From NCBI GenBank assembly GCA_029974595.1, contig JARKRC010000048.1:1-59072 (forward strand): a DNA stretch of 59,072 nucleotides. Reading direction: 5' to 3'. The position numbers and the translations under genes are program-made. Each line of letters begins with the position of its first letter. The stretch's first letter is position 1. The notes under the pieces are model-generated. The model worked only from the letters and a program-made list of their open reading frames with translations, was not told where the DNA came from and made no database searches. Below are positions 7,241 through 55,967 of this stretch, piece by piece. Source of the DNA: Ereboglobus sp. GTDB taxonomy: Bacteria > Verrucomicrobiota > Verrucomicrobiia > Opitutales > Opitutaceae.

Positions 7241-7292
7241 GATATGTTTTTATATTTTGGGTGATTGGTTTTATTAAAAATGCCGCGGCCCG

Positions 7293-9181: not shown

Positions 9182-9183
9182 TG

Positions 9184-11106: not shown

Positions 11107-11132
11107 TGGATGATGCAGTTTGCGTTGACGGA

Positions 11133-12512: not shown

Positions 12513-12552
12513 GTCTCGATTTGTTTATAGGGTTTGAAGTTTGAATATTATA

Positions 12553-13800: not shown

Positions 13801-13873
13801 TGTGGAATTGTGGAAATGTAGCTGCGCGGAGAAATGCGCGCGCGACGGGCGCGACGGCGTTGTTATGTTTGCG

Positions 13874-27494: not shown

Positions 27495-30400
27495 TTACTC
27501 CGCGCCCGAAGCCTTCACGACCGCCCGGATGACCACCGGGCCGGCCAAGCCGGACGGCAGGATCGGTGAGTCCTTGTCGTAGTGCTTCCATGTCGTGAAC
27601 GTGACCCGGCCCACCGGGCTGCGTTCGCCGCGGAGGAACCAGTCGGGATACGCCTTCAATCCGAAACCGCGCCTGCGCGGCACCCTCGTCCACTCGCGAT
27701 CCGCGGGCAGCTGCTCGTCCCCGATGAGGCGGTTCACCCAAGTGTTGGTGACGGCAATCTCCAGCGCATTCACGCCATCACGCACCGCATCCGTGATATC
27801 CACCCGGAAAGGCGGCTTCCAAAGCGTGCCGAGATTGCGGCCGTTGAGCTTCACCTGCGCGATCACCTGCACGTCTCCCAAATCCAGCCACAAGCGGCGG
27901 TTTCCGCCGCGCAATCCGGCGGGCATGACAAAGGTTTTCCCATAGGTCGCCGTGCCCGAAAAATATTTCACGCCGGGCAGCGTGTGCTCGCTCCACAAAA
28001 CAGCGCCGGGCAATTCCACCCCGGCGGGAGCGCCCCACCCTTCGGGAAAACGCAGCGTCCACGCGCCCGCGATGGGAAACGGCGCCGGCGCCGGCCCGGT
28101 TTCGCAATCGAACACGCGGCCATCGGCCCGGCGAACGTGGTAGCGACCGGGCGCGTCCGCCCAGACAACCGGCCTGCCATTTTCGATGGTCACCTCGACG
28201 ACGCCCCGCGTGGAATCCGCGGGCTTCGAATCGTTCCCGGATGTGTTTTGCGCGAGCGCCTTTGAAGCGGACTCCTTCGGCATCGTGCGCATCAGCGCGG
28301 CAATCTCCGCCTCGCTCAGCGCGCGATCAAACAATTTCACGTCCGAATGCTCGCCGGCAAACACGGAGGCGCGCGCATCCCGCGTCTCATCAACCGCGCC
28401 CCGCGCGGTGAAAACCGAGCGGAACCCCTTTCGCGCAAGGCGGCCGTTGAGATAGAGCGCCGGGCGTCCGTCCTGATACACAACCGCGACATGCGTCCAG
28501 TCCGCAAGCGACACCGGTTGAACCAGCGTCGCCACGAAATGGAGCGCGCTGTGCTCAAGCACGCAGACGACGTTCCTGCCAATCGCAAGCCCCGTGCCCG
28601 CCGCGGAATCATCCAGGTAACGCTCCACGCCCTGCGGCGGGAAAAGCAGGTCGTTGCGCGTGATGCGCAAGGCCGAGGTGCCCGCAAAATCCTCGGCAGG
28701 CACATCCATGTCCGCCGCGGGCTTCACCCAGACGGCGTAGCTGAAGTTGCCGGCAACGCCCCGCGCATCGCGATTGTCCGTCGCATCCGGAGCTGTTTTT
28801 TCCTCTGCATTTCCCGCGTCGATCAGCACGTCCCGCCCGCGGGAAACCGTGACGATTCGCGAGGCATCCGGCGGCGCGTCTTTTTGAAAGACGACAAAAA
28901 CCGATTCGCGCGGCCCCAGCCTGAGCGGCATCCGCGCATGCCCGCCGTCTGTCTCATAAACCGGAATCTCTTCGATGGAACCGCGCTCCGGGTGCCATAA
29001 TTGCGGCCTGCCCTTGCCAGCGCGGAAAACCGCGCGCACATCGACCGCCTCTGCTTCGAGGTTTGCCACGAAATAAATCTCCCGCTCCGGCGTCGTGCGG
29101 TGGATGAAATGCACGCGCGGCCCGGATTTTGCCGGGGGGGAAGCGTCGTCCTCGTATTTGTTTTCCCGATACACGAAGTCCGGCGTCGCGCCCGCGTCCA
29201 GCAGCGTCTCCGCCAGCGAGCGCCCCCACACCACGCGGCCCCTGCCGAATTTCCGCTCCTTGACGCGCACGCCGTCACAGTCGCCCCAAACCTCCGCGAC
29301 GAGTTTGCGCACCTCCGCGTCGCACGCCGGATAATCGCGGAGGCTCGGCGAGCGCAACGGCGGCGCGCCAAACACGGTCGCGCCATCGCGCACGAGGTCG
29401 CGCAGTCTGCCCAGGAGCGCGGGCGTCATCAGGCGCTGTTGCGGCATGACAAGCACGCGGTAGCTCATGCCGTCGGGCAGCGTCAGCCTGCCGTCCTTCA
29501 CGGACATGCGCGTGAGCACGACCTCGCCGGAGCAGAAATCGTAATCGTAGCCTTTCGGCGGCGCGGGCATCACCTCCTTGAGCAAGGGCGGATTTTTTAT
29601 CCCCTCCTCGCTTTGCAAATAACAAATGTCCGCGACAAACAGCCCCTGCCGCAGCATGTGCTGGCAGCGCGCGACATAGTCGTGCCACGGGCGGCTCTGC
29701 TCCCACCAGGTCGCGGTGCGTTCGTATTCCCATCCCCACGGCCCCATCGTCATGCCGGGTTTGCGATCATCGGTCCACGGCTGCAACGAATAACGGTGGA
29801 CGATAAAGTGATTGATGCCCGCGCAAAACGCCGCGTCCCCCACCGCCTTCGCCGCGTAGGGATGAAGCCGGTGCTTGCTGTTCAAATCGGTCGCGGTGAA
29901 CGCCTCCGCGGCGATGACGGTTTTCCCGTAAATGTGTCCCGCCGACGCCATCATCTTCACGCTCGTATGCAGGTTTTCGGGATCGGGCGACACCCAGAAT
30001 TCGCCCATGGGAAGATCCGCGCGGCCCGTGTAGGTCAACGGGTCGAAAGGCCCGTTCCGATAGCCCTCCAGCGAAAAGAACTTTCCATGTTTGCGCGCGA
30101 GCGCGGCCATGCGGCCGGCGTAGTTTTCGTTCAGCAAATCCGAAATCGTGCGGCGCATGTCCCAGAGGAAACGCTCGCTCATGCCGGCGTCGCCGACGAC
30201 CCGCCCCGTGAGCGCGGGCAGCCACGGCAGCAGATCGTAGCCGCGCAGCCGCTCAAACTCGCTGCGGAAGCGCGCCGTCCAATTCTGGTAGCCGACCTCC
30301 CAGCTGTCGATGTGCACGCCGGCAAAGGCGCCGGCGCCCGTGCCCGCGGCATCGGTGGTCGCGATGAGTTTTCCAAGAAATCCGTCGAAATGTTTGTCGA

Positions 30401-31628
30401 GCGCGGCGGCGCTGAGTTTGTCCACTTCCAACCCGCGCGCGTCGGACGGCGCGGGATAATTGTTTTTGCCGGTCGATGTGTGTCCGAAACGCAAAATCGT
30501 CCAGTCGCCTTCCGGCACGCTCCACTGCAAATGCCCGTCGCGAAGGCGCGCCGTCAGATCGAGTATTTTATTTTTGGATACGCTCATACCCGCCGTCGCC
30601 CCGGGGGCGTCCGCCGGCGACGCCGCGAGGCCAAGGCCGGATTTCTTCGCGTAGTCATCGATGCGGAACACCGGCGACAGCGTGATTTCGTTGACCCGCA
30701 GGCCATCGAGCGAGGCGTCGTTGCCGCTCAGGACGACGCGAAAGATTTTCGCCTTCGCCGGCGCGAATTCCTTCGCGGGGGAATTGGCGTGCGTGCGCGC
30801 GATCTCGCGAAAAACGCGCCCGTCATCGGACGCCTGCAATGCGCACAGGATGCGGGCCGTGGCGCCCGGTTTGCGCTTCGCAAACCCGACCGTGACTTCC
30901 AGCGAGCAGGCCTCGTAAGGCTCCGGAAAGGCAAACTGCACATACGGCCATTCGTCGCCGTTGTTCGGACGGCCCAGAAGCGCGCCCGATTTTTTTCCGC
31001 CATCGGCGAGCGCGGAAAGCTCCGCCGCCGTCGCGCCGGCATTTGTTGTGATCACCGGTTTGTGGTCGCGCATCGCGCCTGTTTCCGAAACCGGAGTGGG
31101 AAAGGCGAGCACGGCGATGTCGCGATAAAATCCCTCGATCGTCTGCGGCTGTTCCAGCGCGGCGTCAAAGGCGGCCGGGCCCGACACGCGCCGCTCCGTC
31201 CAGACGACTTTTTGCATGGAATTTTCCGGCGTGTTCCACGGGCCGCCCGAACCGGTCCAGCCGGGGTCGTTGTTCATGATCATTTGCAGGCCGAGCCGTT
31301 TCGCCTCGCTTGTCGCAAAGGCAAACATGTCGCGCCACTCCTGCGTGACCATCCGCACCGGGCCTTTCGGCACGCCTTGATCGACCTCCATGATCAGGAC
31401 GCCCGCGATGCCCGCGCGCTTCATCGCCTCCAGGTCGGCGGTGATGCCTTCGCGCGTGATGTTGCCATCCGACCAGAACCAGAAAACCCACGCGCGCGCG
31501 TCGTCGGGCGGGCTGGCGAAAGCGCGTTCGAACGCGGCGGGCTCATGCGCGAGGCTCGCCGGCGAAAAAGACTGAGAGAGAGAAATTGCCGACAGGCACG
31601 CGGCAAACAAGACGGGGACGGATTTCAT
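27495..31628 (-). CDS. Exported GH106-type alpha-L-rhamnosidase with LamG-like insert
   Basis: The 1377-residue protein has a signal peptide (MKSVPVLFAACLSAISLS) and opens with the GH106 hallmark: FASPPDDARAWVFWFWSDGN followed by DLEAMKRAGIAGVLIMEVDQG and NNDPGWTGSGGPW. The catalytic part runs to about residue 850. A concanavalin/LamG-like domain (NFSYAVWVKPA ... LYLNGRLARKGF ... KLFDRALSEAEIAALM, about 960-1130) is present before the C-terminal galactose-binding sandwich (KYFSGTATYGKTF, NGRNLGTLWKPPFRVDITDAV, NTWVNRLIGDEQLP). GH106 enzymes remove alpha-L-rhamnose from pectic RG-II and other glycans. It is the last gene of the ten-gene operon, 39 bp after the previous gene. Confidence 0.88.
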   Translation of the reverse strand: MKSVPVLFAACLSAISLSQSFSPASLAHEPAAFERAFASPPDDARAWVFWFWSDGNITREGITADLEAMKRAGIAGVLIMEVDQGVPKGPVRMVTQEWRDMFAFATSEAKRLGLQMIMNNDPGWTGSGGPWNTPENSMQKVVWTERRVSGPAAFDAALEQPQTIEGFYRDIAVLAFPTPVSETGAMRDHKPVITTNAGATAAELSALADGGKKSGALLGRPNNGDEWPYVQFAFPEPYEACSLEVTVGFAKRKPGATARILCALQASDDGRVFREIARTHANSPAKEFAPAKAKIFRVVLSGNDASLDGLRVNEITLSPVFRIDDYAKKSGLGLAASPADAPGATAGMSVSKNKILDLTARLRDGHLQWSVPEGDWTILRFGHTSTGKNNYPAPSDARGLEVDKLSAAALDKHFDGFLGKLIATTDAAGTGAGAFAGVHIDSWEVGYQNWTARFRSEFERLRGYDLLPWLPALTGRVVGDAGMSERFLWDMRRTISDLLNENYAGRMAALARKHGKFFSLEGYRNGPFDPLTYTGRADLPMGEFWVSPDPENLHTSVKMMASAGHIYGKTVIAAEAFTATDLNSKHRLHPYAAKAVGDAAFCAGINHFIVHRYSLQPWTDDRKPGMTMGPWGWEYERTATWWEQSRPWHDYVARCQHMLRQGLFVADICYLQSEEGIKNPPLLKEVMPAPPKGYDYDFCSGEVVLTRMSVKDGRLTLPDGMSYRVLVMPQQRLMTPALLGRLRDLVRDGATVFGAPPLRSPSLRDYPACDAEVRKLVAEVWGDCDGVRVKERKFGRGRVVWGRSLAETLLDAGATPDFVYRENKYEDDASPPAKSGPRVHFIHRTTPEREIYFVANLEAEAVDVRAVFRAGKGRPQLWHPERGSIEEIPVYETDGGHARMPLRLGPRESVFVVFQKDAPPDASRIVTVSRGRDVLIDAGNAEEKTAPDATDNRDARGVAGNFSYAVWVKPAADMDVPAEDFAGTSALRITRNDLLFPPQGVERYLDDSAAGTGLAIGRNVVCVLEHSALHFVATLVQPVSLADWTHVAVVYQDGRPALYLNGRLARKGFRSVFTARGAVDETRDARASVFAGEHSDVKLFDRALSEAEIAALMRTMPKESASKALAQNTSGNDSKPADSTRGVVEVTIENGRPVVWADAPGRYHVRRADGRVFDCETGPAPAPFPIAGAWTLRFPEGWGAPAGVELPGAVLWSEHTLPGVKYFSGTATYGKTFVMPAGLRGGNRRLWLDLGDVQVIAQVKLNGRNLGTLWKPPFRVDITDAVRDGVNALEIAVTNTWVNRLIGDEQLPADREWTRVPRRRGFGLKAYPDWFLRGERSPVGRVTFTTWKHYDKDSPILPSGLAGPVVIRAVVKASGAE

Positions 31629-31667
31629 GATTTTTGGGAGGTTGTGATTGAGGTTTTTCGCCCGCGC

Positions 31668-34600
31668 TCAGTTCGTTTCCCGAAAAATTCGCACGGGGCC
31701 GAGCAGGCCCGACGCGAGCAAGGGCGACTTGGGATTGATGACGATGTTGGTGTCGGTCAGCCGTTTTTCCGGCGGCAGCGCGGCGTCGCCGATCAGGCGG
31801 TTGCGCCACTCGTTGACGACCTCGATTTCAAGGAGGTTTTCGCCGTCCTTCACGGCATCCGTGATATCGACGCGCCACGGCGACGTCCACACCGTGCCGA
31901 GGTCGCGGCCATTGAGCCGCACGCCGGCGATGTTCTTTACGACGCCGAGGTCGAGGTGCAGCCGGGGGTTCGCGCCGCGCTGCTTTTTGTAATCAAAACG
32001 TTTTAGATAAAACGCCGCGCCGGAGTAATACTTTATGCCCTCCTCGGGGCGGTTCGTCCAATCCTCCAGTTGCTCAAACTCGACCTCCGCCGGACCGCCC
32101 CACGCCGGATCGAACTTTACCGTCCACGGGCCGGTCAGTTCGCGCGCGAAGGTGTACTCCGCGAAATTGCGCGCGCCAGGTTTCGCGCCGGGAATCGTGG
32201 GCTTCGCCGGAAACACGACAAAGAACGACTGGAAGGGCGCGAACGTGAGCGAAACAATCGTGCGCCCGCGCGCGACGCGATGCGCCGCGGGGCGTGTCGA
32301 GCCATCGACCGGATTCCAGATTTCGGGCGCGCGGCCGGTTACGCGGAAACTGCATTCCTGCGTCTGCGCGCAATTCGCCTGGTTCGCGACAAAATAGATT
32401 TCCGCGCCAGGAGAGCTGCGGTGGATGAAATCCATGCCCGTGCCGCTCTTGTTGGAGACACCCGTGGAAAGCGCGGCGGCCTCCGCGTTTTCCGAGCAGG
32501 CAAAATCCGGCCCGATGCCGTCCTTCGCGAGAATCTCCCGCAGCGGCGCGCCCCAGAAGACGCGGCCCCGTCCGTATTTGTTCATCGTGCGCGTCCTGCC
32601 GTCGCAGGCGCCCCATATTTCCCGCGCGAGCCGCGCCACGGTGTCGTCCGATGCCGGATGGTTTTTCAAACCGGGATCGCGTTTTGGCGGCGGCCCCGAA
32701 ATCGTCGCGCCCGCCTCGACGAGCGCCCTGATCTTTTCCAAGACCTCGACCGGCATGCGGTCGGTTTCGGGCAGCACGAGGACGGCGTAGCTCATGCCGT
32801 CGGGCAGGACCATGCGCCCGTCGCGCACGGAGACGCGCGTGAGCAGCACCTCGGCGTTGCACGCGTCGTAATCGTAGCCGAAGCCGAGCGTGGGCACGAT
32901 GTGTTTCGGCGGAACGATGTTCGGCGCCCAGTCGCCGTTGTAGAGGAGCGCGTCGGCGACGAACAACCCCTGCCGCAGCAGGTGATGGCAGCGGCCCAGG
33001 TATTTCAAAAACGCGCCCGAGTGATGCCACCAGGTGACATTCGGGTTGAAGTGCGTGCCCGCATAATACTCGTAGCCCGGTTTTCCGGCGGAGAGTTTCG
33101 TGGCCGACGTCGTGTGAACGACGATCATGTTGATGCCCTCGCAAAACGCGCGGTCGGCGGATTGCTTGAGCATCGCGGGCGCGTCCTGCCATTGGCGCAT
33201 GGCGGTGAAGGATTCCGCCGGCGCGAGTTTGCGCCCGTAAATATGCGCCGCGGACGCGACCATCTTGGTGACCTTGTTCTGCCCGTCCTCAAGGCGCGAC
33301 TCGCCATAGCGGAGCTTCGGATCGAGGCCGCCCGGCTCGTCGTGCCTCGTCCCGAGCCAGAACTCGCCCATGGGGCGGTCGGCGCGCCCGAGGTTCTTCA
33401 AGGTGTCCATGCACATGGTGCCGGAGCGGCTCGGCCCGGCGGATTCGTGCTGCGCCTCCATGCCGAGCTCGTGGCATTTTTTCCCGAAATACGCATAGTG
33501 CCTGTCGGCCATGCAATCCGCGACGGTCTTCCGGTAATCATACAAAAAGCGGTCGGATATTTCCGCGCTGCCGACAATGAAGCCGTTCAACACCGGCGTG
33601 TAGGGACGCGGATCGTAACCGCGCCGTTCCTTGAATTCCTCCAATATGTTTTCCGTCCAGTTGGGAAATCCGTCCTCGAAACTGTCGCTGCAAAAATATT
33701 TCAGCGTATTGCGTCCGTTGACCTTCCCGCCTTCGAGGAAAATCTTCCCGAGTTTTTCGAATTGGATGTCCACCGGCTTGCTCGCGAGCCAGTCAACCGA
33801 GAGGCCGTCGCCTTCCGGCGGGGCGATCATGAGGCGCGAGCCGGTCATGCGGTGCCCCGTGCGCACGATCACCCAGCGGCCCGGAGGTACGTCCCAGTCG
33901 AGACGCCCGTCCGTGCTCATGCGCGAAGTCAGATCTACCACGCCGCCCGGCGGGATGGGCTTGTCCGCGGGTTGCCCGATCCACGGGACGAGCGTCGGCT
34001 CCACGACCTCGGAGCAGCGCGCGTGATTGCTGGCGTCCCTGCGATTTGTTTTCGCGGGCAAAAGCTCAAGGCGCTCCTTGTCGCTGAAGCGCGCCGCGTC
34101 GTCCGTGTCGTCGCGAAACGCCACCACGCAGGTGTCGCGGTAATCCAGTTTTTCGAGCGGCAGGTCAATGTAGGCCTTGTAGCCGGGCGGATTAAAAACC
34201 TTGTCGTAGCCGTCGCGGTTTCCCGGGAGCGGGAGCGCGCCGGAAAATTTTTGCGGCCCCGTGACGACATGCCGCGACTGCAAGAACCAGCGGCCCGAAT
34301 CGCGCGGCTCGATCCACGGCCCGCCCATGCACCAGCCGCCGCTCAGGTTGACGCCGAACTCGATTCCAAGCCGGTCGGCCTCGCGGACGGCGTGCCTGTA
34401 TAATTCCATCCACTCGTCCGACAAAAATTTGACACCCTTGCGCCGCTTCTCCGGTGCGCCGAGGTTGGTGGAGTTCACGAACAGCACGCTGCCGATGCCC
34501 TTCGCAGCAAACTCCTCAAGGTCGCGCGTGATCCCCGCGCGGTCCACCTGCCCGTCGAGCCACCACCAGTAACCGCCCGGTCGCGCCGAATCCGGCACGC

Positions 34601-34748
34601 TCGCAAACGCCTTCGCAAGCTCCGCCGCCCCCGCATCGCCGGCGTCCGGGATTTGGGCGGCGGGCACGTTTGCAAACAAACCCGAGCGGCATGCCGCGAG
34701 CGACACGCCCGCCATCGAGCTGATTTTAATAAAGTCCCTGCGTTTCAT
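31668..34748 (-). CDS. GH106-type alpha-L-rhamnosidase with Tat-like signal
   Basis: From ATG 34748 the protein has 1026 residues. The N-terminus MKRRDFIKISSMAG is a twin-arginine signal, with a Cys at about 19 (LAACRSG) that may be a lipobox. Then follow FASVPDSARPGGYWWWLDGQVDRAGITRDLEEFAAKGIGSVLFVNS and NLSGGWCMGGPW, the GH106 N-terminal signature, and near the end the conserved KYYSGAAFYLKRF, NGRDLGTVWTSPWRVDITDAV and NEWRNRLIGDAALP. It lacks the LamG insert of its downstream paralogue and is therefore shorter. Use of Tat rather than Sec, unlike its two paralogues, is notable. It is separated by 102 bp from the gene before it and 39 bp from the one after it. Confidence 0.88.
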   Translation of the reverse strand: MKRRDFIKISSMAGVSLAACRSGLFANVPAAQIPDAGDAGAAELAKAFASVPDSARPGGYWWWLDGQVDRAGITRDLEEFAAKGIGSVLFVNSTNLGAPEKRRKGVKFLSDEWMELYRHAVREADRLGIEFGVNLSGGWCMGGPWIEPRDSGRWFLQSRHVVTGPQKFSGALPLPGNRDGYDKVFNPPGYKAYIDLPLEKLDYRDTCVVAFRDDTDDAARFSDKERLELLPAKTNRRDASNHARCSEVVEPTLVPWIGQPADKPIPPGGVVDLTSRMSTDGRLDWDVPPGRWVIVRTGHRMTGSRLMIAPPEGDGLSVDWLASKPVDIQFEKLGKIFLEGGKVNGRNTLKYFCSDSFEDGFPNWTENILEEFKERRGYDPRPYTPVLNGFIVGSAEISDRFLYDYRKTVADCMADRHYAYFGKKCHELGMEAQHESAGPSRSGTMCMDTLKNLGRADRPMGEFWLGTRHDEPGGLDPKLRYGESRLEDGQNKVTKMVASAAHIYGRKLAPAESFTAMRQWQDAPAMLKQSADRAFCEGINMIVVHTTSATKLSAGKPGYEYYAGTHFNPNVTWWHHSGAFLKYLGRCHHLLRQGLFVADALLYNGDWAPNIVPPKHIVPTLGFGYDYDACNAEVLLTRVSVRDGRMVLPDGMSYAVLVLPETDRMPVEVLEKIRALVEAGATISGPPPKRDPGLKNHPASDDTVARLAREIWGACDGRTRTMNKYGRGRVFWGAPLREILAKDGIGPDFACSENAEAAALSTGVSNKSGTGMDFIHRSSPGAEIYFVANQANCAQTQECSFRVTGRAPEIWNPVDGSTRPAAHRVARGRTIVSLTFAPFQSFFVVFPAKPTIPGAKPGARNFAEYTFARELTGPWTVKFDPAWGGPAEVEFEQLEDWTNRPEEGIKYYSGAAFYLKRFDYKKQRGANPRLHLDLGVVKNIAGVRLNGRDLGTVWTSPWRVDITDAVKDGENLLEIEVVNEWRNRLIGDAALPPEKRLTDTNIVINPKSPLLASGLLGPVRIFRETN

Positions 34749-34850
34749 TATGTCTTGATCCTTGTGTTGTGGTGTTGTGAGGGGGAGACGCGTTTTCAGG
34801 CGTGCGGAGTTTGGCGGAAAATGTGGGTGTCGGCCGGGTGGCAAACCGCA

Positions 34851-39050: not shown

Positions 39051-40552
39051 GGTGTCGGCGGATTGGAAATCGGAAGGAAAACGGCGCGCGGTTTTTCCGC
39101 AACGGCAGGCGGCGGCTCCGCCTCGGCGCGCAGGGCGGCGCAACGCTCGCGCATAAGCTCCAGTTGTTTCGCGGCGGCGCTTTTGCCGGCGAGGTTGTCG
39201 AGTTCGAGCGGATCGTTTTCGAGATCGAAAAGCTCCTCGACGACGGGCGACTCGGACGGCCAGCGCACATATTTCCACTTCGCGCCCACCACGCCCTCGC
39301 TCGGCGGGATGATTTTCGGAAGCGTGCGGTGCTCGTAATAAAACTCGGTGCGCCAATCCGCCGGCGCGCGGCCCTCGATCCACGGACGCAGCGACCTGCC
39401 CTGCATCGCGCCGGGCGCGGGCACACCCGCGTAGTCGAGCATCGTCTGCGCGTAATCTATGTTCAGTGCCATGCATGGGATGCGGCTGGCTGCGCGTTTT
39501 TCGCGGACGGGCGGCGCGATCACGAGCGGCACGCGCACGTCCTCCGCGTAGATATACCATTTGTCCGACATGCCCCGGTCGCCGAGCGCGAAGCCGTTGT
39601 CGGAGGTGAATATTATCAATGTGTTTTCGAGCATTCCGCGCCGTTCGAGTTCGTCCAGAATGCGGCCAATCTCGCGGTCCATTCCGGTTATCAGGCGATA
39701 AATGTCGCGGGTCGTCGCGAGCGCCATGTCGTCATTGGCAAAACGCACCTGCCAGCGTTTGCGCCCCTCGGATGTTTTCACCGGCGCGGGCAGTTTTTCA
39801 AAGGCTTCCGCCGTCGCCGTGGGCTGCGGCGGGATGGCTGCGTCCTTATACAAATCCTCATCGCGCGAATCGGGCGGGAACTCGCGCGGCGCGCGGTCCT
39901 GCGCATGGGGGGCCTTGAAGCCGATATTCAGCATCCAGGGTTTTCCCTCGGGCACGGTCGCGAGAAACTCCAGGGCCTGGTCGCCGATGCGCTTCGTGAG
40001 ATGCTCCGGCGAGTCTTTTTCGAAATAGCGGAGATTGCCCGGACGCGAGCGCCAGAAATCGAAATCGTGCGAGGGCAAATCCTGCGGTTTTCCGCCGACG
40101 CCGAACTTGCCGATCATGCCCGTGTAATATCCGGCGGCGCGGAGCAGATGCGGATAACTGTGCTCCCAGGGTTCGCGTCCGATCGGGTCGGAAAAGTTCC
40201 AAATGCCGTGCGCGCGTCCGTGCTGGCCGGTGAACATGCTGGCGCGGCTGACGACGCAAATCGCGGTCGTCACATGGGCGTTTTCAAAAACCGCGCCCCG
40301 CGCGGCGAGGCGGTCGAGGGCGGGCGTTTGTATGATCCTGTTTCCGGCGAAACCGAAGGCGTCGGCCCGCGCGTCGTCGGCGAGGATGAAGAGTATGTTA
40401 GGCGCGTCCCGGCGCGGCACAACCGGTTTTTCGGCCTGCGCCGCCGCCATCGAGGCGGACAGGGCCATTGCCGAGACAAGGGCGGCGGCCCTTGCGGGGA
40501 CGGCGCTCGCAGCCGCCACCGGCGGAGTGTGTGCCTGCCGCTTTCGCGTCAT
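39047..40552 (-). CDS. Exported S1-family sulfatase
   Basis: The start at ATG 40552 gives 501 residues with a signal peptide (MTRKRQAHTPP, Ala-rich core to AAAQA). Longer in-frame starts run into the glpD coding region and are unlikely. Metal-binding DD is at about 59-60 (NILFILADDARADAFG), and the sulfatase signature is C99-V-V-S-R (ICVVSRASMFTGQHG), followed by GKFGVGG, DNGFALGDRG and a C-terminal part. The usual formylglycine site is C-x-P/A-x-R; here the third position is Val. The Cys can still be the modified residue. The enzyme would remove sulfate from a glycan outside the cytoplasm. It is 26 bp after glpD and overlaps the GH106 start by 4 bp. Confidence 0.87.
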   Translation of the reverse strand: MTRKRQAHTPPVAAASAVPARAAALVSAMALSASMAAAQAEKPVVPRRDAPNILFILADDARADAFGFAGNRIIQTPALDRLAARGAVFENAHVTTAICVVSRASMFTGQHGRAHGIWNFSDPIGREPWEHSYPHLLRAAGYYTGMIGKFGVGGKPQDLPSHDFDFWRSRPGNLRYFEKDSPEHLTKRIGDQALEFLATVPEGKPWMLNIGFKAPHAQDRAPREFPPDSRDEDLYKDAAIPPQPTATAEAFEKLPAPVKTSEGRKRWQVRFANDDMALATTRDIYRLITGMDREIGRILDELERRGMLENTLIIFTSDNGFALGDRGMSDKWYIYAEDVRVPLVIAPPVREKRAASRIPCMALNIDYAQTMLDYAGVPAPGAMQGRSLRPWIEGRAPADWRTEFYYEHRTLPKIIPPSEGVVGAKWKYVRWPSESPVVEELFDLENDPLELDNLAGKSAAAKQLELMRERCAALRAEAEPPPAVAEKPRAVFLPISNPPTP

Positions 40553-40578
40553 GCGAGCGCCTTTCCGTGTGTTTCCGT

Positions 40579-42072
40579 TCAGCTCTTGGCCGGGTGTCCG
40601 GCGCGGCAGAACGTCTTGGCGGCCTCGGCGTGGTATTCGGCGAGCTGTTTCGCCTTTTCCTCGGGAGTCCAGCCGGCGGCCTGCGCCATCCAGTCCGCAA
40701 CCTCGGCGGCGCGGGCTTCCATGTTGGGATGGTAATAGTGCCAGCTCGTGCGCCTGAAGAGGACGTCGGTGAGCGTGATCGCCCACTCGTTTTCAACGTA
40801 ATGTTTGACGGCCTCGCTGCCGTAGGCGGCGGGAATGATGCCGCTGTAAGCCTCGGCCTCGGCGGCGGGGAGCAGGGGCTCCTTCGCAGTGCGACAGGGC
40901 TTCGCGTCGGCTTTCAGGAACTTGACGATCTGGTCAACGCCCTGTTGCGCCATGAGGCGGTAGGTGGTGAGCTTGCCGCCGGCGATGTCCCACCAACCCT
41001 CGGTCGGGTTCTTGATCTGGTGGGCGCGCGAGGTGTCGGACGGCGTGCCGTCCTTGTTCGCGATGAGAGGGCGGAGGCCCGACCACGAGCTGATGATGTC
41101 CTCGTGGGAGAGTTTCACCGGGGGGAAGGTCTTGTTTACCGTGTGGAGCACGTAGTCGATGTCCTCGACGTCCACGCGCACGTCCTCGGGACGCGCATCG
41201 TAGTCGGTGTCGGTCGTGCCGATGATGAGGCGCTCGCCCCAGGGGATGATGAAGAGGATGCGCTTGCCCTCGACCATGGTGACGGCTTCCGGCACGTTGA
41301 GGCGCTTGCGATCGACGACGATGTGAATGCCCTTGGTGAGGCGCAGTTTCACGGCGCTGTGCGGCATGGCCTCGGCCCAGGGGCCGGCGGCGTTGAGGAT
41401 CGCGCGCGATTGCACGGTCATCGTGCGGCCCGTGAGCGTGTCCTCGATCGTGCAGTTCCACAGATCGCCCTCGCGCTTGGCGTCAACGAAACGCGTGTAG
41501 TTGGAAATGATCGCGCCGGACTTCACCGCCGAGCGGAGCGTGTCGAGCGTGAGGCGCGCGTCGCTGGTGAGCGCATCGAAATAACGCACCGAACCGCGAA
41601 GGTTTTCGGGATCGATGCCGGGGAGCTTTTGCATGGTCTCCTCTTTTGTATAACCGCGCGAGGGCTCGAAGTTGCGCCCGCCGCAGAGCAAGTCATACAT
41701 TTTCACGCCAATGCGCATCTGCCACATGGGGCGGCGCAGGTATTTGTATACGGGGAAAATGAAGCCGAGCGGCTGCCCGAGGTGCGGTGCGATGTTGTGC
41801 ACGACTTTCTTTTCGACGCTCGATTCATGCACGAGGCCGACGCGGCCTTGTTCGAGATAACGCAGCCCGCCGTGCAAAAGACGGCTGGAACGGCTGCTCG
41901 TGCCGTAGGAGAAGTCATAGCGATCGACAAGGCCGATGCGCAGTCCGCGCATGGCGGCGTCTCGCGCGACGCCGCTGCCAACGATGCCTCCGCCCACAAC
42001 GAGCAGATCAAGCGGTTTTTCTGTGAATTGGCGGAAAGTGGATTCCCGCTTTTGTGCAATATTAGTGTTCAT
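40579..42072 (-). CDS. glpD: FAD-dependent glycerol-3-phosphate dehydrogenase
   Basis: The 497-residue protein has the GlpD/GlpA pattern: a dinucleotide-binding fold PLDLLVVGGGIVGSGVARDA at about 20-39, then RYDFSYGTSSRSSRLLHGGLRYL, a substrate domain with TKGIHIVVDRKRL, LIIGTTDTDYDA and WSGLRPL, and a C-terminal helical domain. It oxidises sn-glycerol 3-phosphate to dihydroxyacetone phosphate and passes electrons to quinone at the inner membrane. It lies 34 bp after the HAD phosphatase gene and 26 bp before the sulfatase gene, so it is co-transcribed with both the glycerol-phosphate genes and the polysaccharide genes. Confidence 0.93.
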   Translation of the reverse strand: MNTNIAQKRESTFRQFTEKPLDLLVVGGGIVGSGVARDAAMRGLRIGLVDRYDFSYGTSSRSSRLLHGGLRYLEQGRVGLVHESSVEKKVVHNIAPHLGQPLGFIFPVYKYLRRPMWQMRIGVKMYDLLCGGRNFEPSRGYTKEETMQKLPGIDPENLRGSVRYFDALTSDARLTLDTLRSAVKSGAIISNYTRFVDAKREGDLWNCTIEDTLTGRTMTVQSRAILNAAGPWAEAMPHSAVKLRLTKGIHIVVDRKRLNVPEAVTMVEGKRILFIIPWGERLIIGTTDTDYDARPEDVRVDVEDIDYVLHTVNKTFPPVKLSHEDIISSWSGLRPLIANKDGTPSDTSRAHQIKNPTEGWWDIAGGKLTTYRLMAQQGVDQIVKFLKADAKPCRTAKEPLLPAAEAEAYSGIIPAAYGSEAVKHYVENEWAITLTDVLFRRTSWHYYHPNMEARAAEVADWMAQAAGWTPEEKAKQLAEYHAEAAKTFCRAGHPAKS

Positions 42073-42106
42073 GGAAGAATTGGTGTTAAGGGTTAATATT
42101 CGTGAT

Positions 42107-42922
42107 TTATTTGCAATTCATAAGGAGATTTCCGAGCTCGGCGAGGGTCGGCACAACAACGTCTGGTTTCACAGTCGATTTCGCCACGTCGTCCTCGGTC
42201 GCCTCGCCGCTAAGAACGAGCACGCCGACGGCGCCCGCGCGCTCCGCCATGCGAATGTCCGTGTAAAGCCGGTCGCCGACCATCGCTATTTCGTCCGGGC
42301 GCAGGCCGTGGCGGTTCAAGATCCCTTCGAGCATGGTCGGGTCGGGCTTGCCGAGGGTGATGTCGGGGGCGCGTCCCGTCGCGTGTTCGATGGCAGCGCA
42401 CATCGAGCCGCAATCGACGAGCACGGTCGGCAGGTCGGTCGGGCAGACGCGGTCGGAATTCGTGGCGATGTAGGGGATGCCCTGCTTCGCCCACCAGGAG
42501 GCGCGGCACAGGCGCGAATAGACGAGCGTCATGTCAAACCCCACGACAAGGGCGTCGGGCAGGTCGTCCGCGGAATCGGACGCGCTTTCAAAGCCGCCCT
42601 TGGCGAACTCCTCGATCATGCTGGGCGTGCCGAGCATGAACAGGCGGCGGAACGCCGGGTGTTTTCTTTTTATATAATCCACCGCGGCCTGGGCCGTTGT
42701 ATATAATTGTTCGGGCACGGCCTCGATGCCGATCTTGTGCAGATGCTGCAAATAGGCGGCGGAGCTTTTGGAGGGATTGTTTGTGAGGAACGTGTAGCCC
42801 ACATTCCTGCCCGCGAGCCCGTCGAGGAACGGCTTTGTCCAAGGGAAGAGCGTTCCGCCCTTGTAAATGGTGCCGTCCATGTCGAGGACGACGTGCTTGA
42901 TGCGTTTCAGATCAGGGTTCAT
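42107..42922 (-). CDS. HAD-IIA family phosphatase (NagD/glycerol-phosphate phosphatase-like)
   Basis: The 271-residue protein has the HAD nucleophile motif VVLDMDGTIYKG (Asp14 and Asp16), the second motif FLTNNPSKS, a type IIA cap in the middle, and the Mg2+ site MVGDRLYTDIRMAERAG near the C-terminus. HAD-IIA enzymes dephosphorylate small phosphates such as 4-nitrophenyl phosphate, UMP (NagD), phosphoglycolate or glycerol phosphate. Lying 9 bp after a GlpT-like transporter and 34 bp before glpD, it most plausibly acts on glycerol phosphates or a by-product of the pathway. Substrate choice is inference from context. Confidence 0.88.
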   Translation of the reverse strand: MNPDLKRIKHVVLDMDGTIYKGGTLFPWTKPFLDGLAGRNVGYTFLTNNPSKSSAAYLQHLHKIGIEAVPEQLYTTAQAAVDYIKRKHPAFRRLFMLGTPSMIEEFAKGGFESASDSADDLPDALVVGFDMTLVYSRLCRASWWAKQGIPYIATNSDRVCPTDLPTVLVDCGSMCAAIEHATGRAPDITLGKPDPTMLEGILNRHGLRPDEIAMVGDRLYTDIRMAERAGAVGVLVLSGEATEDDVAKSTVKPDVVVPTLAELGNLLMNCK

Positions 42923-42931
42923 GGAATTGGA

Positions 42932-44335
42932 TCAGTTGGCGGCTGTTTTTTCCTCGTAGCCGTCGGCCTTGGCATTCCACATCAGCATAAAGACGCCCGT
43001 GCCCACCACCGCCATGCCGATGATGGCGATGTAAGCGTTGTCCCAGCCGTAGTGCTGGGCCACGTAACCGAAGCCGACGCCGGACACCGCTGTGCTGGCG
43101 TAGCCGAATATGCCCGTGAGGCCGTTGGCAGTCGCCGCGGCCTTTTTTGTGGCCTGGTTGGCCGCCGCGATGCCGATGAGCGCCTGCGGCCCGTAGATGA
43201 AGAAACCTGTCGCGCAGAGAACCGCAAAAAGCATCCATGACGACGCGCCCGACGGGATCATCCAGAGCAGGACGGCGCAAATCGTGGCGCCGAGCATGCA
43301 AAACACGCAGGTGCGATGCGCGCGGCCTTTCAAAAAACGATCCGTGGCCCAGCCCGCCACAAGCATGCCGGCGATGCCCGCAATCTCAAACAGCGCCACC
43401 ATCCAGCCCGCGTGCGCCAGGCTCACGCCCTTGGATTGCTTGAGCAGCGTCGGACCCCAGTCGAGCACCGAGAAGCGCACGATATAGACGAAGAAATTGG
43501 CGAAACCGAGAATCCAGATGAGCGGATTGCCGAACACTTTTTCACGCAAAAACGCCCTGTATTCAGCCGACTTCTCGACTTTTTTCTTCAGCTTTACCGT
43601 GGTGCCTTCCAACTCGGGCAGGCCTACGGAGCTCGGGGTGTCGCGCAAAAACACGAACAGCATGATGGAGCCGACCATGGCAATGCCCGCGGGTATCCAG
43701 AAGCACCAGCGCCACGCGCCGGTGTGATGCGCGCCCTCTCCCATGTGGTTCATGATGTAGCCGCAAAGAATAACGACCAGACCCGCGCCGATGGAGTGCG
43801 ACGTGTTCCAAACCGACATCTTTGTGGCCAGCTCGCGGGGCGGAATCCAGTGCGTGAGCAGTCGCGCGCAAGGCGGGAAACCCGTGCCTTGCAGGGCTCC
43901 GTTGACGAGCCACGTCATGCCCAGGAACAGGATGAGCACATTCGTGAAACCCGGCCCTGATGGCTGGCCGGATATCCATGAGGCGATATCCACGCCGAAA
44001 CCGAACGCAAAGTTCGACAGCGCGCACAACGCCAGGCCCGTCGCCATGTAGAGGCGGGCGTTGCAGCGGTCGGCGAAAATGCCGTTCACGAAACGCGAGA
44101 CGCCATAGATCACGCCGTTGAGCGTGAGATAGATGCCGAGATTGGTTTTCGAAATGCCCAGGTCCGTCTCCATGCCGGGCATGGCCATGCTGAAGTTTTT
44201 GCGGACAAAATAATACAGCGCATAACCGATCATGGTCAGCAAGATGGTACGCGTCTGCCAGTAGCGAAACCGCGATTGGATTTCAGGATTTGCCACGGCG
44301 TTTTGCGTGTTCGGGTTGCTGTTGTCTGCGGTCAT
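42932..44335 (-). CDS. glpT: Glycerol-3-phosphate transporter, GlpT/OPA family
   Basis: The 467-residue membrane protein has 12 predicted helices and the organophosphate:Pi antiporter signature: RYWQTRTILLTMIGYALYYF then VRKNFSMAMPGM, and GVSRFVNGIFADRCNARLYM between helices 2 and 3, both close to GlpT. A long central cytoplasmic loop (GTTVKLKKKVEKSAEYRAFL) separates the halves. Members exchange inner-membrane glycerol 3-phosphate, hexose phosphate or phosphoglycerate for phosphate. The operon context (glycerophosphodiesterase, two glycerol-phosphate dehydrogenases) supports glycerol phosphate. Gaps are 24 bp before it and 9 bp after it. Confidence 0.89.
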   Translation of the reverse strand: MTADNSNPNTQNAVANPEIQSRFRYWQTRTILLTMIGYALYYFVRKNFSMAMPGMETDLGISKTNLGIYLTLNGVIYGVSRFVNGIFADRCNARLYMATGLALCALSNFAFGFGVDIASWISGQPSGPGFTNVLILFLGMTWLVNGALQGTGFPPCARLLTHWIPPRELATKMSVWNTSHSIGAGLVVILCGYIMNHMGEGAHHTGAWRWCFWIPAGIAMVGSIMLFVFLRDTPSSVGLPELEGTTVKLKKKVEKSAEYRAFLREKVFGNPLIWILGFANFFVYIVRFSVLDWGPTLLKQSKGVSLAHAGWMVALFEIAGIAGMLVAGWATDRFLKGRAHRTCVFCMLGATICAVLLWMIPSGASSWMLFAVLCATGFFIYGPQALIGIAAANQATKKAAATANGLTGIFGYASTAVSGVGFGYVAQHYGWDNAYIAIIGMAVVGTGVFMLMWNAKADGYEEKTAAN

Positions 44336-44359
44336 GCGCGTTTTGATTTATGTTGTTTG

Positions 44360-45751
44360 TTATTGTTTGATTTCCCAGACGCCGCCGGAGCCGAAGAGGC
44401 CGTCGAGACAGGGAGCGAAGAGACCGGTGCGCGTAGCCACGTCGAGGACGGTGAAGCGGCGGCGGATATGATAGGCTTTGTGAAAACTGTCGCGAAGACG
44501 CGCGCGCGAAATGCCGATTTGCTCCGGCTCCACGGGCGCGCCGACGGCGGAGAGACGGCGCTTGATTTCGTCGCCGGGTATCAGTTGCGCGGACAACCGC
44601 CGCACGATCTCCGGCCATTTTTCCTTCAACAGGTCCAGCTGCTTGCGAAGCTGGTCGGCATCCACGTATTTCGCGCCGGTTTCGCGCACGGCGGTGTCGG
44701 TGAAATCGCTCGACGCAAACTCCGTCCGCACCTGTTGCAGCACGGTCTCCTTCGAAGGCCACGCGGCGCACAGGGCGTCCACGTCCAGCTTCGCCATGTC
44801 GATGCGCATCATCTGCTCATAGAACAAGGTGACGGTGCGCGTCGCGACGCCGACCTTGAAGCCGTGCGAGGGAGCCGCGCCGTTGTGCGTGTGGTGCTCC
44901 ATGTCCCAAAGATGGCTGAACTGGTGCTCCGCGCCCGACGCCGGGCGGCTGCTCTTCGACCATTGCATCGCAAAACCGCCGAGCATCAGCCCTTCGGTCA
45001 GGCCGCTGATCGCGGCAACATCCCCGGCCCGCGCGCCCGCCGGATCGGCGAGCGCATCGCGCAGGCCTCCCTGGACGATATTCCACGCGCCTTGGTCGAT
45101 CGCCTCTTCGCCGAGCGCGTCGGCAAGGATCCAGTCGGCCCCGGCGGTTATTTTCGCAAGCAGATCGGCATAGCCCGACGCCGTCATGTCGGACGGCGCC
45201 TGTTTGATGATGTCGATATCCGCCACGACGGCCTGCGGAGCGGGGCAATTGAAAGTCTGTTTCGCGCCTTCGTGCGTGATCGACGCGCCAAAGGCCGTGT
45301 AGCCGTCCATCGACGACGCCGTGGCGACGCAGAGATACTGGCGGCCCACGCGATGCGAGGCGAGCTTGGTGAGGTCGTTTATCGTGCCCGAGCCGACGGC
45401 GACGGCAATCGCGTCGTGCTGGCGCAGCGACGCCTCAAGCCGGTCCACGAACGAGGACTGCGCATACAGGTCGGGATCGGAAAACACAAACGGCTCGCGC
45501 TGCGCAACGCCGTCGGCGGCAAGCCCTGCGCGCACGGCGTCGCCGGCCACGCGCATCGTGTTGAGGTCGCCCACCACGACGGCGGTGCGTCCGGGAAATT
45601 GCGCCCGAAAAACTTCGCACACCCGCGAGATTGCGCCGCCGGCGACAACGAGCGTCTTGGTTTCACGGGCCATCGCGAGCGCTTCGTCGAGCGAGAGCCT
45701 GGCGGCGGAGGATTGGGCTTGGGCGTTTTCGGGTTTTGACTGGTTGTCCAT
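44360..45751 (-). CDS. egsA: sn-glycerol-1-phosphate dehydrogenase (EgsA/AraM family)
   Basis: The 463-residue protein is an iron-type alcohol-dehydrogenase-fold enzyme of the G1P dehydrogenase branch: TLVVAGGAISRV, the nucleotide-binding VGSGTINDLTK segment, VATASSMDGYTAFGASIT, and metal-ligand Asp/His segments including ADLLAKITAGADW and SHLWDMEHHTHNG. These enzymes interconvert dihydroxyacetone phosphate and sn-glycerol 1-phosphate with NAD(H). In Bacillus the enzyme feeds G1P into a prenyl-glyceryl phosphate; in archaea into membrane lipids. Here it sits between a glycerophosphodiesterase (76 bp) and a GlpT-like transporter (24 bp), next to GlpD, so catabolic oxidation of G1P to DHAP is as likely as synthesis. 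Confidence 0.9.
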   Translation of the reverse strand: MDNQSKPENAQAQSSAARLSLDEALAMARETKTLVVAGGAISRVCEVFRAQFPGRTAVVVGDLNTMRVAGDAVRAGLAADGVAQREPFVFSDPDLYAQSSFVDRLEASLRQHDAIAVAVGSGTINDLTKLASHRVGRQYLCVATASSMDGYTAFGASITHEGAKQTFNCPAPQAVVADIDIIKQAPSDMTASGYADLLAKITAGADWILADALGEEAIDQGAWNIVQGGLRDALADPAGARAGDVAAISGLTEGLMLGGFAMQWSKSSRPASGAEHQFSHLWDMEHHTHNGAAPSHGFKVGVATRTVTLFYEQMMRIDMAKLDVDALCAAWPSKETVLQQVRTEFASSDFTDTAVRETGAKYVDADQLRKQLDLLKEKWPEIVRRLSAQLIPGDEIKRRLSAVGAPVEPEQIGISRARLRDSFHKAYHIRRRFTVLDVATRTGLFAPCLDGLFGSGGVWEIKQ

Positions 45752-45827
45752 TGTATGGGTTGAGAAAAATACGGGTTTTTTTGTGAACGGATTTGTTTTC
45801 AGGAATGGCGGAGGCTGCCGGGATGGA

Positions 45828-46784
45828 TCACCTGGCGGCCTTCTTTTTTCCGGCGTAGTAGGCTTTGATCTCGCGCATCGTCACATCGGGATAATCCGTG
45901 GCGAACGATTGGACCCCGAGATCGAGCAGCGTCGCATACACTGTCGGATCGTCGGTGTAGGGCAGCGTCTGGAAATTGATGCCGTGGCGGCGCATCCGCT
46001 CTCCGAGCTTGATGATGAACTCGCGCGAGTGAGTGAACGGCTCCGCGAGCGCGTCCCCGGACTTTTTGTCCTTGTTGGGGAAAATATGGAGCTGCATCTG
46101 CGTGAGACCCTCGAAGTTTGTCTTTTCGAGCTCGTCCATCAGCTTGGTGATCCTGGCCTCGTCGCCGCGCATCCACAGGAGGGTCTCCGATTCCGGCACG
46201 AGTTTTTTCCATTCGGCGTGCAGTTCCGGTTTCGACGAGGTGAAGATGACCTGCTTCGCGACGCCGTATTCCTTCACCAGCGCGGCGAGCTGCTTGAGAT
46301 CGACGGTCTTGATATCGAGATAAAAACCGCGTTCGGGACGGTTGCGAATCATCTCGAACAATTCCGACATCTTCGGCGTGCGGCGGCCCACGAAGGCGTC
46401 GCCTTTCCAGGAGCCGACATCGAGTTTCGAGAGGAAATCGTAGGTGACGTCCTCGACGCCCTGCTTCGCGAGCTCGGGGCTGGCGTCTTTCACGACGCGC
46501 TTGAAATTCTTGTCGTGAAACGACACGATCACGCCGTCCTTGGTGGTGCGCACGTCGGCCTCGGGAATCGTCCCGTGTTTCCAGCCGATCTCGAATGACT
46601 CGATGGTGTTTTCCTCGGCGAGAAATCCCGCGCCGCGGTGGGATTGGACGATGAATTGGTCGAGCGGCACATGGTCGGTGACGTTCCACTTGCTCACGGG
46701 AGCGGATGATTGGTTGCAAGCCGCCGTCGCAGCGAGCATGAGCATCGCGCCCAAGGTCGCGGCCAGTCTTCCCGTATTTTTCAT
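45828..46784 (-). CDS. Exported glycerophosphodiester phosphodiesterase, probable lipoprotein
   Basis: The 318-residue product has a lipoprotein-like signal (MKNTGRLAATLGAMLMLAAT, then AACNQSS with a lipobox Cys at about 23). The mature part is a GDPD TIM barrel: QSHRGAGFLAEENTIESFE, EADVRTTKDGVIVSFHDKNFKR and FYLDIKTVDLKQL, which contain the general acid/base His pair and the metal-binding Glu/Asp. GDPD enzymes release glycerol phosphate from glycerophosphodiesters; a surface or periplasmic member can work on lipid headgroups or wall polymers. Its ATG overlaps the regulator stop codon (ATGA). It would generate the substrate for the transporter and dehydrogenases downstream. Confidence 0.9.
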   Translation of the reverse strand: MKNTGRLAATLGAMLMLAATAACNQSSAPVSKWNVTDHVPLDQFIVQSHRGAGFLAEENTIESFEIGWKHGTIPEADVRTTKDGVIVSFHDKNFKRVVKDASPELAKQGVEDVTYDFLSKLDVGSWKGDAFVGRRTPKMSELFEMIRNRPERGFYLDIKTVDLKQLAALVKEYGVAKQVIFTSSKPELHAEWKKLVPESETLLWMRGDEARITKLMDELEKTNFEGLTQMQLHIFPNKDKKSGDALAEPFTHSREFIIKLGERMRRHGINFQTLPYTDDPTVYATLLDLGVQSFATDYPDVTMREIKAYYAGKKKAAR

Positions 46785-47770
46785 TTTTTCGCCTTTCTTG
46801 CTTTTGTTTTTTTGCCCGCCGGACGCACCTCGGCCAGCAGCGCGCGCGCCCCTGGCTCATCGATCACAAGCCCCTTCAAAAATCCTCCGCGCACCGCCCC
46901 GAGGATGGAAGCCGTGCGATCCGAGCCGGAAACGATTCCGATCACATTTGAAATCTTGCGCAGCTGCGCGAACTGCACGCTCATCACCAGATCGCGCCAT
47001 GAGGTGTCGCACTCGTCTCCATCAGCGTCGTAAAAGCGCCCGCATATTTCGCCGACGGCGCCCGCCTCGCGCAATTCCTCGATGGCCTGCGCGTCGAACA
47101 CACCCCGCTCGATGAAAACCGAATTCTCCAGCGTGCCGACGCCCACGAGCGCCACGTTCGCGCTGTTAAGCTGGTTGTGCACGGCGAGCACCTGGTCGAG
47201 TTTCATCAGCGCGTCGCGCATCTTTTTCTCCGACACATACGCCGGCGTGTTCATCGCGACGAAAGCCCCGCCAAGACGCTGCGCGATCACGCGCCCGATT
47301 TCCTGGGAGTCGAACTCGTTCACGGCCGAATCCACGCTGCCCATCGACTGCACGACGGTGAGCATCTTGTTGCCCGGCTGCGGCAGGCTGTGCGCGAGCG
47401 CGTGAATCGTGCGCCCGCCGGCAACCGCGATCACCGAGCCCGGACGGATCAATTCCGCCACAAACGGCGCTGCAAAAAGGGCAACTGATTTGCGCAAGTC
47501 CGCCTTGCCAAGACCGCCCGCCATTTTGATGACAATCGCGGTTTCAAGGCCAAGCTGGACGCGCAGGCGCGCCTCGAGATCCTTGTCCCGCGGGTCGTAA
47601 TCCGCAACCGTGATGCGCACGATCCCCTGCTCCCTGGCCATTGCGAGCAAACGGGATACCTTTGCCTGAGAAACCTTTACGAATTTAGCGACTTCGCTCT
47701 GCCCCAGCCCGTCCACGTAATAAAGGCGGGCGGCCAAGTGTAATTGCTCGTCTGAATAACTATTCAGCAT
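46781..47770 (-). CDS. SorC/DeoR-type transcriptional regulator with sugar-binding domain
   Basis: The 329-residue protein has an N-terminal helix-turn-helix (about 5-55: ARLYYVDGLGQSEVAKFVKVSQAKVSRLLAMAREQGIV) and a C-terminal SorC-type ligand domain (about 60-310, with PGSVIAVAGGRTIHAL and VALVGVGTL). SorC regulators bind phosphorylated sugars or polyols and control their own operons. It is the first gene of the ten-gene run and overlaps the glycerophosphodiesterase gene by 4 bp, so the inducer is plausibly a glycerol phosphate, DHAP or a sugar phosphate. A perfect palindrome covers its first codons and a TTGACA promoter lies just ahead, which suggests autoregulation. Confidence 0.9.
   Translation of the reverse strand: MLNSYSDEQLHLAARLYYVDGLGQSEVAKFVKVSQAKVSRLLAMAREQGIVRITVADYDPRDKDLEARLRVQLGLETAIVIKMAGGLGKADLRKSVALFAAPFVAELIRPGSVIAVAGGRTIHALAHSLPQPGNKMLTVVQSMGSVDSAVNEFDSQEIGRVIAQRLGGAFVAMNTPAYVSEKKMRDALMKLDQVLAVHNQLNSANVALVGVGTLENSVFIERGVFDAQAIEELREAGAVGEICGRFYDADGDECDTSWRDLVMSVQFAQLRKISNVIGIVSGSDRTASILGAVRGGFLKGLVIDEPGARALLAEVRPAGKKTKARKAKK
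47752..47767 (-). promoter_or_regulatory. Palindrome CTGAATA-N2-TATTCAG, candidate autoregulatory operator
   Basis: The 16-bp palindrome has perfect 7-bp arms and covers codons 2-7 of the SorC-type regulator gene, just downstream of the proposed promoter. Binding there would block transcription of the whole operon. An 11-of-12 match to its AATAACTATTCA half is found at about 24314-24325 before the GH78 and autotransporter genes. Operator function is inference. Confidence 0.45.
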
Positions 47771-47781
47771 TTGTATTAAAA

Positions 47782-54005: not shown

Positions 54006-54014
54006 CCGAAAAAG

Positions 54015-55848: not shown

Positions 55849-55849
55849 A

Positions 55850-55959: not shown

Positions 55960-55967
55960 AACCACCC

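Follow-up and report, generated by a model that had tools for sequence, protein, structure and literature searches.

The glp system of Escherichia coli includes GlpQ, GlpT and GlpD. We examined a comparable set of genes in a 59,072-nucleotide stretch of Ereboglobus sp. (GenBank assembly GCA_029974595.1, contig JARKRC010000048.1; hereafter the window), which is contig 15 of a draft genome (4.07 Mb, 77 contigs, 96.4% complete). Like the glp system, the ten-gene run studied here includes a predicted exported phosphodiesterase, a carrier and an sn-glycerol-3-phosphate (G3P) dehydrogenase; unlike that system, it adds a predicted sn-glycerol-1-phosphate (G1P) dehydrogenase (G1PDH), a HAD-IIA phosphatase and a SorC regulator. 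The region is best described as a probable glycerol-phosphate catabolic module (47770-40579) beside rhamnosidases and a cluster of phosphoesterases; its likely targets are glycans that bear phosphate or the debris of glycerophospholipids.

A second point of comparison is AraM of Bacillus subtilis, whose neighbour we take to be the HAD phosphatase AraL in the arabinose operon; the window G1PDH likewise lies near a HAD-IIA phosphatase. AraM is a Ni-dependent G1P dehydrogenase and the closest solved structure by sequence and fold (PDB 9h4x). Unlike AraM, the window enzyme stands with a glycerophosphodiester phosphodiesterase (GDPD), a GlpT-like carrier and GlpD. Bacterial G1P uptake entered the literature as late as 2025, in PMC12718374, where the ABC transporters GpxB/UgpB of marine bacteria are called the only known G1P transporters. 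Both enantiomers are used there, as predicted here, but the window carrier is predicted to belong to the major facilitator superfamily (MFS). Surveys of G1P dehydrogenases (PMC5059525 and PMC6431249) frame the bacterial enzyme as membrane-lipid history. PMC6431249 reports it in only two of 12 FCB (Fibrobacteres-Chlorobi-Bacteroidetes) phyla surveyed, and PMC5059525 lists Bacteroidetes among its holders, so that G1PDH in Bacteroidota is not new. No description of the window gene set was found in the literature searched, many subscription papers being beyond reach.

Two modules in one gene run

The ten genes share the minus strand, running from 47770 to 27495, with intergenic gaps from SorC onward of -4, 76, 24, 9, 34, 26, -4, 102 and 39 bp. 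Both -4 gaps are ATGA overlaps (SorC/GDPD, 46781-46784; sulfatase/GH106a, 39047-39050), and 26 bp separate GlpD from the sulfatase; the chosen start codons are ATG 40552 for the sulfatase, ATG 39050 for GH106a and ATG 34748 for GH106b. Coordinates, spacing and domain searches agree with the initial annotation, which had described ten same-strand genes of these families with gaps of at most 102 bp and two ATGA overlaps. The run consists of two modules: A, with SorC, GDPD, G1PDH, GlpT-like MFS carrier, HAD-IIA and GlpD, and B, with a sulfatase and three GH106 enzymes (Table 1). The genes may be co-transcribed. A promoter scan of 38800-47900 gave 1 site against 1.8 expected, and 17 terminators against 11.7; it does not inform the limits of an operon.

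Table 1. Features of the window, with positions, strand and supporting matches
Feature	Position	Strand	Evidence
SorC-type regulator, first gene of module A	46781..47770	-	PF04198, 210 bits
GDPD, glycerophosphodiester phosphodiesterase	45828..46784	-	PF03009, 74 bits; HRG and ExD...H stretches align with solved GDPDs
sn-Glycerol-1-phosphate dehydrogenase, long (463 aa), predicted	44360..45751	-	PF13685, NF002022
GlpT-like organophosphate transporter (MFS)	42932..44335	-	GlpT 1pw4, E 1.9e-74; PgtP and GlpT models
HAD-IIA phosphatase	42107..42922	-	TIGR01460 above cut-off; nearest solved structure 1vjr
GlpD-type FAD glycerol-3-phosphate dehydrogenase, last gene of conserved module A	40579..42072	-	PF01266; NF008899
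Sulfatase with leader, first gene of module B	39047..40552	-	PF00884, PF16347
GH106 enzyme a	34851..39050	-	PF17132, 532 bits
GH106 enzyme b, putative Tat-like leader	31668..34748	-	PF17132, 591 bits
GH106 enzyme c with laminin-G domain	27495..31628	-	PF17132, 690 bits; PF13385
GH78 alpha-L-rhamnosidase, convergent with module B	24448..27183	+	PF17389 and four further GH78 domains
Phosphoesterase cluster: PAP-like, two EEP, CBM96-metallophosphoesterase, FAD oxidoreductase, MFS	5936..13923	-	domain matches
Operator-like palindrome TGAATANNTATTCAGCAT, over SorC start codon	47753..47770	+	exact match

Module A is predicted to lead both enantiomers to one intermediate

In the mechanism that we propose, the exported GDPD would cleave glycerophosphodiesters and the GlpT-like carrier would import the glycerol phosphate released; G1PDH would then oxidise G1P, and GlpD would oxidise G3P, each to dihydroxyacetone phosphate (DHAP). 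The HAD-IIA enzyme may dephosphorylate excess C3 phosphates, a role assigned with low confidence. That both enantiomers would meet at DHAP, as the initial annotation had it, follows from the known reactions of these families, and catabolism of both is the best reading because AraM is the nearest match to the dehydrogenase model and a search of the genome turned up no PcrB; the presence of GlpD also agrees with it.

The AlphaFold model of G1PDH (pLDDT 93) matched, in order, AraM 9h4x, 3ce9 (a Clostridium protein labelled glycerol dehydrogenase) and the G1PDH of M. jannaschii; archaeal G1PDHs followed AraM at a short distance. D196, H276, H296 and the stretch SRxASGAEH, to all of which we ascribe a catalytic role, were invariant across 30 homologues. 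By predicted fold and conserved residues, the dehydrogenase fits the G1PDH branch (EgsA/AraM). Two observations weigh against this assignment: the equivalog model NF002022 scored 166 bits, below its cut-off of 413, and the window enzyme is 24% identical to AraM in the fold alignment. It is also ~70 residues longer than the 395-residue AraM chain.

We also considered a synthetic direction, with G1P produced by the dehydrogenase as a building block of a lipid or a surface polymer, and a different polyol phosphate as the substrate. PMC12718374 describes G1PDH as an enzyme that reduces DHAP to G1P, and FGGY kinases adjoin G1PDH-HAD in some Bacteroidota, but a predicted exported GDPD, a predicted importer and GlpD share the gene set with the dehydrogenase, and a search for PcrB found none in the genome (the control search was positive in 7/14 genomes, 5 above cut-off). 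We hold this explanation to be quite unlikely. G1P lipid synthesis in particular is disfavoured by the PcrB search, and is unlikely also because a GpsA gene is present on contig 37 besides a GpsA-like gene on contig 6.

The remaining module A proteins carry the features of their families to differing degrees. The carrier aligns with GlpT (1pw4) across nearly its whole length, and its VRKNF, SVWNxxH and YxxR stretches match what we take to be the GlpT substrate site (Arg45, His165, Arg269); its scores with all PgtP/GlpT models are under their cut-offs (316.6 vs 632.55 bits for the glpT equivalog TIGR00712). The predicted GDPD has the domain and the HR, E, D and H residues to which we assign catalytic roles, and its leader looks exported, possibly that of a lipoprotein. 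HAD-IIA carries the family motifs and scores above the TIGR01460 cut-off (131.8 vs 100.15 bits). GlpD exceeds the cut-offs of Pfam DAO and DAO_C and falls below those of NF008899 (339 vs 360 bits) and NF009906 (311 vs 352).

Conservation of module A in two phyla

Conservation was assessed in two partly overlapping samples (some contigs are identical): named loci, the best 80 of 199 dehydrogenase relatives, with 28 assigned by record titles to Verrucomicrobiota and 52 to Bacteroidota; and a family sample of 200 genomes taken from a larger group, 24 of which held a long G1PDH with a match of at least 1e-80 quality, at 32 loci in all. By dehydrogenase, the nearest named records were Opitutaceae (Verrucomicrobiota), namely the metagenome-assembled genome Gx485_bin97 (77%) and Ereboglobus sp. 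PH5-10 (69%). The gene order of module A recurs in Opitutaceae, and G1PDH-MFS-HAD recurs in Bacteroidota. MFS and HAD were both near G1PDH in 13/18 Verrucomicrobiota and 36/47 Bacteroidota named loci with at least 3.5 kb downstream. With enough flank, Verrucomicrobiota had SorC upstream in 18/24, GDPD upstream in 14/24 and GlpD downstream in 10/17; the corresponding Bacteroidota figures were 0/48, 19/48 and 1/44, with a divergent DeoR in 19/48 and GlpD upstream of G1PDH in some. The GDPD and DeoR counts in the 80 loci rest on open reading frame labels that include some overlapping false frames. In the family sample, GDPD stood within 10 kb of G1PDH in 18/32 loci vs 2/40 grid windows, and these two windows themselves contain a G1PDH. 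The glycerol-phosphate half is thus well supported by conservation.

Some loci depart from the full set and weigh against the proposed mechanism. In two genomes of the same genus as the window (L131, L132) no MFS separates G1PDH from HAD; L130 and L133 read SorC-MFS-HAD-GlpD, with no G1PDH or GDPD found. The branches for the two enantiomers are therefore separable, and the L130/L133 sets are perhaps a G3P-only version of the module. Among 22 of the 23 other loci with a GlpD more than 50% identical (G115:C15, split in two pieces, was omitted), a few lack other module genes (L134, L144, L147), and L147 and L144 have a module-type GlpD without HAD and G1PDH matches.

Several Bacteroidota G1PDH loci hold SusC/SusD-like, metallophosphoesterase, EEP or purple-acid-phosphatase-like genes, and 4/52 encode a protein with a GH78-type catalytic domain (L034, L054, L055, L074, with L054 and L074 nearly identical; 66-87 bits in the three scanned). 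These loci support a wider theme of phosphate-bearing substrates and no specific polymer.

This distribution bears on one candidate source of G1P. Ereboglobus and similar relatives live in insect guts together with methanogens, so that archaeal ether lipids might be recycled there. Bacterial recycling of archaeal G1P has been proposed for the sea (PMC12718374), but the gene set also occurs in Bacteroidota and no ether-lipid cleaving enzyme was recognised among the proteins scanned, which leaves this source very unlikely.

Module B and the rhamnosidase neighbourhood

The GH106 assignments of module B are beyond chance (E 4e-159, 4.7e-177 and 4.7e-207), PF17132 spanning nearly the full length of all three predicted enzymes, each above cut-off. 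The sulfatase formylglycine stretch reads CVVSR; of the type I site, which we assume to be C/S-x-P/A-S-R, Cys, Ser and Arg are present, with Val at the third position.

The initial annotation had proposed a ten-gene operon joining both modules. Comparison with relatives does not support a conserved one: tblastn (1e-8) found no sulfatase, GH106 or GH78 behind GlpD in the fetched stretches of the 22 other GlpD loci, at least 10 kb downstream being covered in 15 of them. In the nearest relative, whose contig extends 448 bp beyond GlpD, 84% similarity over 5.1 kb extends as far as position 40598 of the window and stops there, 19 bp short of the GlpD end. Among named loci with at least 9 kb on each side, GH106 occurred in 2/45, and downstream on the same strand in 0/45. 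One conserved ten-gene operon was rejected on these grounds.

Enrichment of rhamnosidases near G1PDH in the family was rejected as well. In a tblastn comparison (1e-15) of the 32 long-G1PDH loci, with flanks covering ~479 of 640 kb, and 40 grid windows, a rhamnosidase was near in 5/32 vs 3/40 (p 0.24, not significant; one of the three positive grid windows was itself a G1PDH locus and was retained). The five loci are the window, contig 6 of the same genome (L149), two in G048, a genome of another genus (L201 and L202), and one in G036 (L135/L017; other strand, upstream). Rhamnosidases are common in the family, since at 1e-15 GH78-like (PF17389) matches occur in at least 163/200 genomes and GH106 in at least 110/200; the window genome has four GH78-like matches and ~9 GH106 genes, counted from 12 partial matches. 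GH106b and GH106c are adjacent in G001, G002, G003 and G078, with module A genes not in the fetched stretches. The window resembles these loci in its clustered GH106 enzymes and differs in that its cluster follows a glycerol-phosphate module; no SusC/SusD domains were found among the window proteins scanned, some open reading frames lying outside the scan.

These results are compatible with ordinary scavenging of phospholipids. The head groups of phosphatidylglycerol and cardiolipin would then supply both G1P and G3P, and the rhamnosidases would be neighbours by position only, with a different glycan as their substrate. Module A lacks rhamnosidases in the loci examined, the proximity of rhamnosidases is not significant, and phosphatidylglycerol keeps a G1P entity (PMC7086022). 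We regard it as a serious contender, somewhat short of probable, because an island in G048 joins related rhamnosidases, phosphoesterases and two G1PDH sets.

A similar island in a second genus

The G048 island lies within 5090-5147 kb of one chromosome (57 kb) and was compared using 20 window genes as queries, with the four best matches per query counted. Homologues of 13/20 were found, at identities of at least 49%. It holds module A, GH106c (67%), GH106b (78%) and one further GH106, and, on the other strand, SorC-GDPD-MFS-G1PDH. An MFS (84%) and an FAD oxidoreductase (83%) match window 11133-13923, and the island adds an FGGY kinase, a metallophosphoesterase (54%), EEP enzymes (best 58% and 65%), an arabinose-isomerase-like gene and two TonB plug-domain genes; 5/6 genes of the window phosphoesterase cluster (5936-13923) have homologues there. 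The neighbourhood is therefore not peculiar to one assembly. A sulfatase-GH106a pair is present in G100, of the same genus as G048. Linkage in relatives, which the initial annotation had proposed to look for, was thus seen as the G048 island, with its GH106b and GH106c, and as the G100 pair, and not as an operon.

The correspondence is incomplete, and the following results count against it. At 1e-15 the island gave no match to the sulfatase, GH78, nucleoside hydrolase, PAP-like protein or the metallophosphoesterase at 47786; GH106a found there only GH106 enzymes of the other types (34%), and for the autotransporter the four best matches in G048 lie outside the island. Across 19 grid windows of G048, the matches listed were MFS, SorC, FAD oxidoreductase (24%), GH78 (28-32%) and autotransporter; those to MFS and SorC fell in a window overlapping its second SorC-MFS-HAD-GlpD set. 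In genomes of the same genus as the window these parts are scattered: ~42 kb lie between the GH106 cluster of G001 and a G1PDH, which has phosphoesterase genes near it; in G002 the GH106c-b cluster is on a different contig from its three G1PDHs; the G003 assembly is fragmented.

The window genome has a second G1PDH, 53% identical, on contig 6 (L149 1-19767). Its neighbours are DeoR, GDPD, a GpsA-like protein, a metallophosphoesterase, a SASA esterase, GH78, a GlpT-like MFS and a PF04185 phosphoesterase, as well as an MBL-domain protein and, next to it, one that resembles it but has no Pfam match. G048 has a counterpart with G1PDH, GpsA-like, GDPD, MFS and GH78 (84% identical); the G001 and G002 copies have no GH78 within the 18 kb fetched. 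Further G1PDH copies (L151, L153) have as neighbours two GDPD-like genes and a class II aldolase on the opposite strand.

As a neighbourhood the rhamnose link is real in two genera; as an operon it is not conserved. What the link means is open to several readings, a rhamnose polymer decorated with G1P being one candidate substrate among others. The rhamnosidases and glycerol-phosphate genes might serve one polymer, a rhamnose polysaccharide of the streptococcal kind carrying G1P. Such decoration of rhamnan, cited in the initial annotation, is documented (PMC11754754); the ten genes are tightly spaced, the second G1PDH locus carries GH78, and the pairing is repeated in G048. A single locus for this polymer is nevertheless unlikely: linkage at the operon level was seen in the window genome only, the Pfam matches of the ten genes include no GlcNAc- or glucose-side-chain enzyme, and a sulfatase would be unexpected for that polymer.

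Harvest of teichoic acids, with exported phosphodiesterases dismantling Gram-positive lipoteichoic acid (G1P) and wall teichoic acid (G3P), would account for one module with both dehydrogenases, since the two polymers are enantiomeric (PMC7086022), and several phosphoesterase families lie nearby. The same source reports that B. subtilis GlpQ does not cut intact lipoteichoic acid; we find the explanation improbable.

Other genes of the window were noted alongside. The minus-strand phosphoesterase cluster (5936-14920) also includes a nucleoside-hydrolase-like gene; an autotransporter-like reading frame of 3123 aa with matches to PATR and pertactin occupies 14927-24298; and a cell-wall gene run near the glycerol-phosphate module (52101-58510) encodes a penicillin-binding protein, two Mur ligases and an MraY-like gene.

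An operator-like palindrome at the SorC start

SorC would control module A, probably through a palindrome at its own start. The only occurrence of TGAATANNTATTCAGCAT in the genome with zero mismatches is at the SorC start, where it overlaps codons 1-6, so that coding constraint may contribute. The sole one-mismatch site is on contig 4 of the same genome (L196 6526-6599; G000:C4:70525), 55 bp ahead of the chosen ATG of a second GDPD, a paralogue 51% identical to the window GDPD. Four sites have two mismatches in the genome, and the reversed pattern gave zero matches there. In several relatives the palindrome stands ahead of the SorC start; in others it covers the start codon, so that its presence may simply reflect conserved N-terminal codons, and some relatives have no good match. 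Control of module B by SorC through a site of its own was rejected, as module B has no match within 3 mismatches.

Implications

The recurring set of GDPD, carrier and both dehydrogenases, together with the finding of no PcrB in the window genome, points to a directly testable catabolic role. It also suggests that members of two bacterial phyla live on wall polymers or lipids that bear phosphate. The neighbourhood hints at a diet of phosphate-decorated cell-wall sugars. More speculatively, and with more doubt than confidence, we propose that Verrucomicrobiota and Bacteroidota share glycan-phosphate loci in which a long G1PDH and an MFS carrier for G1P and G3P serve to release G1P and sugars (rhamnose in the window) from the wall polymers of bacteria, both then being burnt. 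If this were true, the window would encode the first MFS importer of G1P and, to our knowledge, the first route for eating rhamnan decorated with glycerol phosphate.

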